Assembly (NCBI GenBank): GCA_023265025.1
Contig: JAHFUP010000032.1
Span: forward strand, 1-53,378
DNA: 53,378 nucleotides
Reading direction: 5' to 3'
Source: Acidimicrobiia bacterium
Lineage (GTDB): Bacteria > Actinomycetota > Acidimicrobiia > Acidimicrobiales > AC-14
The notes beneath the pieces were generated by a model, which saw only the letters and a list, made by a program, of their open reading frames with translations, searched no databases and was not told the origin of the DNA. Below are positions 33,960 to 36,573 of the stretch, piece by piece. Made by a program: the position numbers and the translations under genes. Within the stretch, counting starts at the first letter, position 1. The number at the start of each line of letters is the position of its first letter.

Positions 33960-34373
33960 TTATCGGCCAGGCTCCCAACCCGCCGGCGCCAGCTCGAACC
34001 GCGAGAACTCGAAGGCCGGCGCCACCGTGCAGCCCACGAGGGTCCACCCCCCCAGGGGGGTCGCCGCCTGCCACACGCCCGCGGGCACGACGATCTGGGG
34101 GCGTTGGCCGGCGGCAATGCCGGGTCCGAGCAGTCTCCGCTCCACCACGTGCCCGTCCGTGGACAACGTCAGCTCCAGGGCGTCGCCGGCGTAGAAGTGC
34201 CAGATCTCCGTGGCGTCCACCCGGTGCCATGCGGAACGCTCCCCGGCCCGCAACAGGTAGTGGATGGCGGTCGTCGCCGGCTCGCGCCACGTCTCCCGGT
34301 ACCACCCGCCCTCGGGATGGGGTTCCAGGCCCAGGGCGGCGATCAGGTCGTCAGCACTGGTCACGGGGCGCAT
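33960..34373 (-). CDS. cupin-fold protein (DUF985 family)
   Basis: The protein of 137 residues has the DUF985 pattern: LGLEPHPEGGWYRETWRE, AIHYLLRAGERSAWHRVDAT, EIWHFYAGDALEL, VVPAGVWQAA and a C-terminal VGCTVAPAFEFSRFEL. The family has a cupin barrel, sometimes with epimerase or metal-binding features; its biological role is unclear. GGAGGG lies directly upstream of the ATG at 34373; a GTG at 34364 is an alternative. It lies just upstream of dapB in the same orientation. Confidence 0.85.
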   Translation of the reverse strand: MRPVTSADDLIAALGLEPHPEGGWYRETWREPATTAIHYLLRAGERSAWHRVDATEIWHFYAGDALELTLSTDGHVVERRLLGPGIAAGQRPQIVVPAGVWQAATPLGGWTLVGCTVAPAFEFSRFELAPAGWEPGR

Positions 34374-34403
34374 TCTCCCTCCGACCGCGTAACGTCCGCC
34401 CGG

Positions 34404-35258
34404 ATGACCGCGGAGCCGCCCGGGCACGACAACCGAACCCTCATCGTCGACGAGCTGGCCGACCGCCTCGAGCGGTTCCGCCTCCTCTACGACAGCGACG
34501 AGGCGGCCACCGACAAGATGCTCGGCGAGCTCGGTGGGCAGGGCCGCGTCGAGCGGGAGATGGTTCGCCAGTTGGCCGCCACCCGGCCCGTCGCCAACCC
34601 CGAGCGGATGCCCGACGCTCACGCCCTGGCCATGCGGGCCCTGGAGGTGCTCGCTCGCAACGGGAGCCGCGCGCCCAGCCGGCTCCGCAACCTGGGCCCG
34701 CTGACGCCCGTGGCCAAGTTCTGTGTCCAGCAGGTCATCCGCTACGTCGTCCGGCGCCACCAGACCCAGGTCATCGAGGCCATCCGCGACCTCTACGCCC
34801 GGCGGCTGGCTTGGATCCGCGTGGGCGACCCGTCGCGCCGGGTGCTGCTGCGGGCCCGGGTCGACGTGGAACGGGCCACGCAGGCGTACAAGAAGAGTGC
34901 GGGCGGCATCCCCGCGGTCCTTGTGGGTGGGGCCGCGGTCTCCTCGATCACCCAGGGCGTCCGGGGTGGCGCCAGCGCCGCCGCCGGGTCACGCGTGGGG
35001 CTGGCCGTCGGCGTCGTCGTCACGTTCGTCCTCCTGGCCGCGGCGTCGTGGATCGTGCTACAGGGCGCGGCGGTCGCCCGCCGGCGCATCAACCTCACGC
35101 TCGACCAGCCGCTGCAGGCGCTGTGGGAAACCATCGGGTGGTGTGGCCGGCCGCCGAAGGACACCTCCCGCACGCTCGCGGCGGTGGCCATCGCCCTGAC
35201 CTTCGCCGGCTGGCTGCTGATCCCCGTCGGTTTGCTGCTGGTGGTGGCGGTGTTCTAG
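34404..35258 (+). CDS. hypothetical membrane protein
   Basis: This 284-residue protein has a long soluble, helical and Arg-rich N-terminal part (about 1-165), then two hydrophobic segments (GLAVGVVVTFVLLAAASWIV and LAAVAIALTFAGWLLIPVGL), with a charged loop between. This orientation suggests a large cytoplasmic domain on a membrane anchor. No family is recognised. It is divergent from the cupin gene, with 30 nt between starts. A GATAAT at 35263-35268, after its stop, may be a -10 element for the OsmC gene. Confidence 0.7.
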   Translation: MTAEPPGHDNRTLIVDELADRLERFRLLYDSDEAATDKMLGELGGQGRVEREMVRQLAATRPVANPERMPDAHALAMRALEVLARNGSRAPSRLRNLGPLTPVAKFCVQQVIRYVVRRHQTQVIEAIRDLYARRLAWIRVGDPSRRVLLRARVDVERATQAYKKSAGGIPAVLVGGAAVSSITQGVRGGASAAAGSRVGLAVGVVVTFVLLAAASWIVLQGAAVARRRINLTLDQPLQALWETIGWCGRPPKDTSRTLAAVAIALTFAGWLLIPVGLLLVVAVF

Positions 35259-35302
35259 AGGCGATAATCACCTAGTACCACTCCATGGGAAGGGGCCATC
35301 TG

Positions 35303-35878
35303 ATGGGTTTGCCGGTCACCGCCACGCAGGACGAGGTTTCCGGGATCCCGATCCCGGCGCTGCGCGGCTTCTACGAGGCCATCGGCGACGGCCCGATCAT
35401 GCTGGACCTGGAGGCGTTCGTGGAGTGGCAGGGCAAGGGCACCCGCGCCACCGGCCACATCGGGCCCTTCAGCCTGATGGGCGAGCGCAAGGAGCGCCTA
35501 ACCCGCAAGTACACGATCCAGTACGACGACTGGGCCGAGATGCCCGGCTGCGACGACGCCGGCCCCGAGGCGGTCGAGACCGTCCTGTCCGCCCTCGGCG
35601 CCTGCATCATCAACCAGACGTCCTGGCACGCAGCCCGCATGGGCATCGTCCTCGACGCCCTCTCGGTCAAGGTCAACATGAGCTTCGACGCCCAAGGCTT
35701 CTTCCAGAACACCGACCAGACCGACAAGTTCAGTGCCATCACCTACGAGATCAACATCCAGTCGATGGGGACGAGCAAGAAGAAGCTCACCGACCTGGCC
35801 AACGTGGGCCGCAACTGCCCGGTGTGCCGGATGCTCAGCAAGCCGATGGTCCTGAAGTCCAAGGTCCTCGTTCACTGA
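35303..35878 (+). CDS. OsmC-family peroxiredoxin-like protein
   Basis: The 191-residue protein carries the two conserved OsmC cysteines, in SALGACIINQTSWHAAR and NVGRNCPVCRMLSKP, plus the core beta-alpha pattern DALSVKVNMSFDAQGFFQNT. OsmC/Ohr proteins reduce organic hydroperoxides through a peroxidatic Cys and a resolving Cys, often using thioredoxin-like partners. GGAAGGGG lies 7 nt before the ATG at 35303. It is followed after 2 nt by the thioredoxin-like gene with the in-frame TGA, so a shared redox pathway is likely. Its second Cys region has an extra CPVC pair. Confidence 0.88.
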   Translation: MGLPVTATQDEVSGIPIPALRGFYEAIGDGPIMLDLEAFVEWQGKGTRATGHIGPFSLMGERKERLTRKYTIQYDDWAEMPGCDDAGPEAVETVLSALGACIINQTSWHAARMGIVLDALSVKVNMSFDAQGFFQNTDQTDKFSAITYEINIQSMGTSKKKLTDLANVGRNCPVCRMLSKPMVLKSKVLVH

Positions 35879-35880
35879 AC

Positions 35881-36573
35881 GTGCCGACATTCGACGACGT
35901 CGACCGCAGCTACGTCGTCGCCCAGCTCGAGGGGCGGATGGACGCGCCCGTCGACCTCACCGTGTCGGTGCGGCGGTCGTCGCCCTTGGCGCTGGTACCG
36001 GCGCCGGGCGCCGAGGAGGCGGCCCGGGCCGAGCAGCTCGGGCGGGAGCTGGCGTCGCTGGAGCCGCGCCTCCGGCTGATGGTCACCGAGGACGGCGCCG
36101 GCGACGTGCCGGTGTTCACCGTCGCCGGCCGGGTGCGCTTCATCGGTGTGCCCCGGATGAACCTGTTCCGCGCCCTGCTGGAGACGATCCGGCGGGCCTC
36201 GACCGGCGACCACGGCCTGGCCGAGGGGTGGGCCCAGGCGTTGGCGCAGCTCCCTCGACCGGTCCACGCCCAGGTCTTCGCCACCCCGACCTGACCCGGC
36301 TGCCCCCCGGTCGTGGTCACGACCATCGGGATGGGCCTGGCATCCGACCGGCTGCAGGTCGACGTGGTCGACGGCATGGCCGGGATGAACCTGGTCCGCG
36401 AGCTGGGCGTCTCGGGCGTGCCGACCGTCGTCCTCGACGGCCGCCTCCGCCTCGACAACCCCTCACCGGACGAGTCCCTGCTCGACTTCGTCCTCCACGC
36501 CGGCGACCGGTCACGGCCGGCGCCGCTCGTGGCCACGGTGCCCTTCCGGGGCTGCGGCCGCCTTTCTTTGTGA
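35881..36573 (+). CDS. two-domain thioredoxin-fold protein, probable selenoprotein (Sec-Pro-Gly-Cys)
   Basis: The frame runs from GTG 35881 to TGA 36571-36573 with one internal TGA at 36292-36294, codon 138. The N-terminal half is a thioredoxin-like domain without active cysteines but with the cis-Pro type segment RFIGVPRMNLFRALLETI. The second half begins PVHAQVFATPT, then TGA, then PGCPPVVV. In protein-disulfide-oxidoreductase relatives this position is TPTCPxCP, so TGA replaces the first Cys of CxxC. The domain then continues normally (ASDRLQVDVVDGMAG, SGVPTVVLDG with cis-Pro). A SECIS-like hairpin follows the TGA. Read as Sec, the product has 230 residues. The alternative is a nonsense mutation giving a 137-residue product without an active site. 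The last few residues come from a palindromic repeat. Confidence 0.75.
36306..36330 (+). promoter_or_regulatory. SECIS-like stem-loop downstream of the in-frame TGA
   Basis: CCCG and GTCGT pair with ACGAC and CGGG around a GGTC loop, with a 3-nt CAT bulge on the 3' side. The loop's first G is 21 nt after the TGA. Bacterial SECIS elements lie directly downstream of UGA, with an apical loop about 16-37 nt away that has a G in its first two positions; this hairpin fits. It lies within the coding sequence, as bacterial SECIS elements must. Confidence 0.55.

Follow-up and report, generated by a model that had tools for sequence, protein, structure and literature searches.

A predicted single-active-site selenocysteine oxidoreductase encoded beside an OsmC-family gene in one genus of Acidimicrobiia

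Disulfide oxidoreductases of the PDO type that contain selenocysteine (Sec) are already described. Tables of a 2006 survey record them for Carboxydothermus and Symbiobacterium (PMC1794560), and PMC13188914 and PMC9312934 list the Sec form as 'Homolog of AhpF N-terminal domain (Grx-like domain protein), TIGR02187, UxxC'. The gene described here lies in a stretch of 53,378 nucleotides from an Acidimicrobiia bacterium (contig JAHFUP010000032.1), called the window below. It is a divergent, single-active-site form of the Sec-PDO and was found in one genus only; since the family has been in print from 2006 on, in the tables cited above, a known kind is widened and no new one is opened.

Three described systems came closest. 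The first is the Sec-PDO of TIGR02187 (PDO_seleno_TRX; e.g., ABB15282.1), with which the window protein shared a profile match across both domains (E = 1e-26, residues 19–206 on profile positions 14–208 of 209) and, within the second-domain pattern U/C-P-x-C, the motif TPT-U-PxC, here TPT-U-PGC. However, the match scored 93.6 bits, below the NCBI curated cut-off of 185, the first domain had no CxxC, and the gene stands behind an OsmC gene. The second is the N-terminal domain of AhpF, which was likewise matched in sequence, and where the lack of a first-domain CxxC in the window protein has a parallel in L024. Unlike AhpF, the window protein stands alone without a reductase part (TIGR03140, 44.1 bits vs. 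502.9; the frame ends at 36573 without a reductase fusion) and has Sec for Cys; it also fell outside the branch holding 29 of the 31 AhpF-type rows in a tree whose root serves for drawing only. The third comprises PDOs of archaea and Aquifex with solved structures, 2hls (E = 6.6e-13), 2ywm (E = 2.1e-12) and 1a8l; these were the best structure matches by sequence, followed by AhpF N-terminal domains. In contrast to the window protein, 2hls and 2ywm have Cys in the second-domain motif, and the first domain of the window protein is bare. The first-pass annotation of this DNA had proposed a two-domain oxidoreductase of the PDO type, which the matches to 2hls, 2ywm and TIGR02187 bear out.

The in-frame TGA and the two domains

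Translation of the window reproduced what had first drawn attention to the locus (Table 1), namely a frame that runs through TGA at codon 138 within TPT-[TGA]-PGC and remains open for codons 139–230, a further 92 codons. The peptide at the TGA read ATPT-U-PGCPPVVV, and the SGVPT segment noted earlier was recovered in frame as GVSGVPTVVL. Homologues had cysteine at the position of the TGA, also as anticipated; examples are L023 (TPTCPYC), L071 (TPSCPYC), and L075 and L076 (both TPTCPNC).

Table 1. Positions of the genes, domains and elements discussed in the text (window coordinates)
Feature	Position	Strand	Basis and remarks
OsmC-family gene	35285..35878	+	PF02566; stop separated by 2 nt from the PDO start GTG at 35881; alignment with 9wo1; neighbour in the other two genomes
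Predicted Sec-containing two-domain PDO gene	35881..36573	+	GTG start; 230 residues including Sec138 and Cys141; stop TGA 36571-36573
First thioredoxin-fold domain, no cysteine	35881..36180 (limits approximate)	+	TIGR02187 from residue 19; alignment with CxxC-bearing relatives; Cys positions
Second thioredoxin-fold domain, predicted active, with U138-P-G-C141 and GVPT segment	36265..36510 (limits approximate)	+	Thioredoxin_3; structure matches; alignment
Codon 138 TGA, predicted to be read as selenocysteine (U in TPT-U-PGC)	36292..36294	+	Same codon in three genomes of the genus; Sec machinery in the genome
Bacterial SECIS-type hairpin (candidate)	36309..36324	+	Stem GGUCGU / ACGACC, loop GGUC, 20 nt from TGA to loop

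The second domain was also recognized by Pfam Thioredoxin_3 (residues 130–190, 28.5 bits vs. a cut-off of 24.8). Cys141 and Cys225 were the only cysteines of the protein, and none preceded residue 141, so the first domain is indeed free of cysteine, as the first reading had it. In an alignment that joined the three genes of the genus to 11 relatives, the window protein had GAEE at the site of the first-domain CxxC, where L073 and L074 have CETC and L064 and L068 have CEYC. A CxxC in the first domain is a mark of PDOs, and the window protein lacks this feature of PDO proper. Structure prediction from an alignment of three rows failed (mean pLDDT 31.4, pTM 0.21), and the kinship with PDOs therefore rests on sequence; judged in this way, the protein is a two-domain PDO with a first domain without cysteine.

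The pair formed by U138 and C141 was the sole UxxC or CxxC pair in the protein. Cys225 (36553–36555, + strand) is located in the C-terminal tail, VPFRGCGRL, and was invariant in the three genomes of the genus; it could be a third redox residue. The earlier claim that the Sec-Cys pair is the only active site thus holds for pairs of this type, while the invariant Cys225 leaves room for a further redox residue.

Upstream of its start the PDO frame meets no stop within the OsmC gene, and a plain list of open reading frames therefore gave a 289-codon ORF at 35425–36294 (+), which overlaps OsmC and ends at the Sec TGA. Annotation around this ORF may be open to error. Automatic annotation may also miss or truncate this predicted selenoprotein gene, because its score is so far under the cut-off of the NCBI model.

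Conservation, decoding and relatives of the TGA-containing gene

The PDO gene was searched for in 248 relatives. It was present in 3/3 genomes of the genus and in 0/7 others of the family; besides the window's own genome, the genus was represented by G001 and G002, whose copies were 86 and 88% identical and lay on contigs JAHFUR010000049.1 (Acidimicrobiia MAG nzgw84) and CADCTB010000074.1 (Acidimicrobiales MAG AVDCRST_MAG10). Both contigs came from an alignment-based contig scan; a contig scan with a single PDO protein as the query produced no match. A profile search across the class Acidimicrobiia, within the Actinomycetota (395 genomes, E = 1e-10), returned G000, G001 and the Cys-type G068, G002 evidently being outside the sample. 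Viral contigs searched for the PDO gene gave no match, and nor did PADLOC.

All three genomes of the genus had TGA at the identical codon. Pairwise dN/dS of the PDO gene was 0.22–0.25 before the TGA and 0.08–0.12 after it, with dS of 0.43–0.52. A Cys-type PDO gene broken by a nonsense change, or by sequence error, would look like an in-frame TGA, and searches of other genera of the family did not turn up the gene; yet the same TGA occurred in three separate genomes at dS of about 0.45, purifying selection was stronger downstream of the TGA than upstream, the genome has Sec machinery, and TGA stands at the same place in 12 distant PDO genes from elsewhere in the phylum. A pseudogene is considered very improbable on these grounds, which agrees with the initial opinion that chance nonsense was unlikely.

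Another possibility is that there are two products, a first domain ending at the TGA and a second domain, without Sec, started internally at GTG 36313. The ORF list does contain an 86-codon frame from this GTG, but the product of an internal start would be without the motif, and yet ATPT-U-PGCPPVVVTTIGMGLA was invariant in the three genomes. Hardly any weight is given to this arrangement beside the preferred reading, which is that of a single protein with Sec at position 138.

The components needed to insert Sec, for which the first-pass annotation had recommended a search and whose absence it would have taken as a refutation, were all found above cut-off in the window's own genome. The tRNA-Sec scored 66.4 bits against a gathering score of 47 and was labelled SeC by ARAGORN, while SelA, SelB and SelD scored 405.6, 273 and 361.5 bits; SelA and SelB were adjacent on contig C124. 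SelD carried an in-frame TGA of its own (HGAG-U-ACK), and two formate dehydrogenase-type matches in this genome, on C160 and C118, had one TGA each. Each of the 10 genomes of the family searched (10/10) had a tRNA-Sec above cut-off. A search of the window with Rfam at gathering scores gave no match.

The frame is open on both sides of the TGA, and this would also be expected if the codon were decoded as another amino acid, through a different code or some other suppressor. Against this, TGA terminates both the OsmC gene (35876–35878) and the PDO gene of the window, the latter ending in TAG in G001 and G002; other relatives have Cys at this position, and a tRNA-Sec is present. The probability of such decoding is accordingly put at next to nothing. 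A TGA at the Cys position of homologues, retained in orthologues, together with SelA, SelB, SelD and tRNA-Sec in one genome, argues that the PDO gene very probably encodes a selenoprotein, with TGA 138 predicted to specify Sec.

The wider search, with TIGR02187 against 396 genomes of the phylum, produced matches in 265 at E = 0.001; 13 were above cut-off, and 10 of these 13 had one TGA. With two further genes below cut-off (L077 and L078), the search yielded 12 Sec-PDO genes beyond the genus. They belong to four other families, f83, f99, f102 and f103, and TPT-U-PxC was present in 12/12. A first-domain CxxC was found in 10/12, being absent from L077 and L078 (family f103). The genus offers an example of a Sec-PDO that keeps the Sec active site only, and L077 and L078 likewise have no CxxC in the first domain. 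In a tree of 48 rows, from which six duplicate loci had been removed beforehand, the genus was placed beside L072–L074 with support of 96/95. This placement is unsure because the branch leading to the genus is very long (3.51) and the tree program warned of long branches. L077 and L078 were on another branch than the genus, and so the first-domain CxxC may have been lost twice.

The hairpin downstream of the TGA

PMC13188914 gives a rule for bacterial SECIS elements: a loop of 3–9 nt, a stem of 4–16 bp, G in loop positions 1–2, and a spacing of 16–37 nt. The hairpin after TGA 138 fits this geometry, with its 4-nt loop, 6 bp and spacing of 20. Its folding energy was -7.2 kcal/mol for the 16 nt alone, slightly weaker than the published limit of -7.5 or lower, and -13.1 kcal/mol for 31 nt including a lower stem (z = -0.96). 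In the two other Sec genes of this genome that were inspected, SelD and the formate dehydrogenase gene on C160, the hairpin that follows the TGA likewise had GGUC at its tip; when the SelD hairpin was folded alone, its loop consisted of the three letters GUC.

A GGUC hairpin with at least six pairs and the right spacing followed 7/1032 TGA trinucleotides in the window (both strands, that of the PDO gene included) and 465/106596 window positions, but 1448/20000 synonymous recodings of the same peptide. For any hairpin of at least six pairs, the values were 275/1032 TGA trinucleotides and 8431/20000 recodings. This shows that the PDO peptide itself favours such a hairpin, which is weak evidence when taken alone, and the case therefore leans on covariation with a second clade. 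The hairpin region contained seven identical codons in a row, and runs as long or longer (10, 8 and 7) occurred elsewhere in the gene, where 96 of 173 comparable codons were identical overall.

Covariation was measured in a gap-free alignment of six distinct Sec genes, picked for their common hairpin register, of which three come from the genus and three (L072–L074) from a second clade. All 36 of 36 cells paired, and three of the six pairs had changed on both sides. The covariation score was 0.578, whereas shuffles averaged 0.192, and 0/500 shuffles reached either the score or the pairing; shifted registers paired at 19–69%. Two of the five measures were within reach of the shuffles, i.e., changes on both sides (51/500) and further pair types (268/500). 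The other nine Sec-PDO genes formed three to five of the six pairs in that register and had other candidate hairpins instead. Among 31 distinct Cys homologues, none formed all six pairs in register and seven formed five; this control comprised the homologues caught by their motif, and so omits L081, L082 and the weak matches L040–L042, L044 and L046–L049.

The adjacent OsmC gene and a putative mechanism

The gene upstream of the PDO gene was assigned to the OsmC family (PF02566, 51.7 bits vs. a gathering score of 27.5). Its product has cysteines at 89, 107, 178 and 181, of which Cys107 and Cys178 align with cysteines of the OsmC structure sequence 9wo1. It resembles the OsmC-related (seleno)protein NF041052 in matching that model at 52.4 bits, but the score is under the cut-off of 95 bits and the OsmC frame contains no TGA. 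At E = 1e-10 this OsmC was present in 3/3 genomes of the genus and 0/7 others of the family; it was found in 4/60 relatives, three of them the genus and the fourth at 29% identity, and in 12/396 genomes of the phylum sample, the 11 others at 26–34% identity.

OsmC preceded the PDO gene in all three genomes of the genus. The window and L062 had the same gene order, namely DapB, an ORF of unknown function, OsmC, PDO, an M16 peptidase on the opposite strand, and PNPase. In L063 the M16 gene was about 2.7 kb past the PDO gene with other genes between, and OsmC and PDO were still together. At the contig start of this locus (L063:1–273, genome G002), the OsmC reading is broken into two parts that lie in different frames, and some 70 residues are missing, through either an assembly fault or a real change.

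A mechanism can be proposed from these observations. SelB with Sec-tRNA would read UGA 138 as selenocysteine, steered by the hairpin 20 nt downstream. The first thioredoxin fold, being without cysteine, would act as a scaffold, and for the same reason the chemistry would fall to the second domain with its U138-P-G-C141 pair. The selenolate of Sec138 would attack a disulfide of the substrate and Cys141 would resolve the mixed selenenyl-sulfide, after which the oxidised pair would be reduced again, probably by thioredoxin reductase, a gene for which scored above cut-off in 3/3 genomes of the genus. Among possible substrates, the disulfide of the neighbouring OsmC-family protein would be the likeliest.

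The pairing of PDO and OsmC would follow the model of AhpC, which is served by the AhpF N-terminal domain. OsmC is put forward tentatively as the main partner of the Sec-PDO, from its position, at somewhat below an even chance. With similar reserve, the two genes might constitute a dedicated module for peroxide reduction, in which a Cys-based OsmC peroxidase would be served by a selenium-based PDO reductase with one site; such a module would parallel AhpC and the N-terminal domain of AhpF, with OsmC in the place of AhpC. About an even probability is assigned to a selenoprotein whose main partner is not OsmC, that is, a general thioredoxin-like reductase or one acting on peroxiredoxins or other substrates. 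Other Sec-PDO loci have different neighbours: within some 1.5 kb on either side, or less where a contig ended, no relative of this OsmC was seen, and the genes beside L072–L074, read by eye, are of the rhodanese-ThiF type. Against a different partner, OsmC adjoins PDO in every genome of the genus and neither gene was found in 7/7 others of the family. The OsmC-type peroxidase is a concrete and testable candidate partner for a Sec-PDO. A search of open-licence literature, by titles and the openings of abstracts, found no description of this OsmC/Sec-PDO pair.

The ORF before OsmC (34229–35275, +) has 348 codons. At the E-values applied, neither Pfam nor NCBIfam gave a match to it, and a stretch in L062 was 57% identical.
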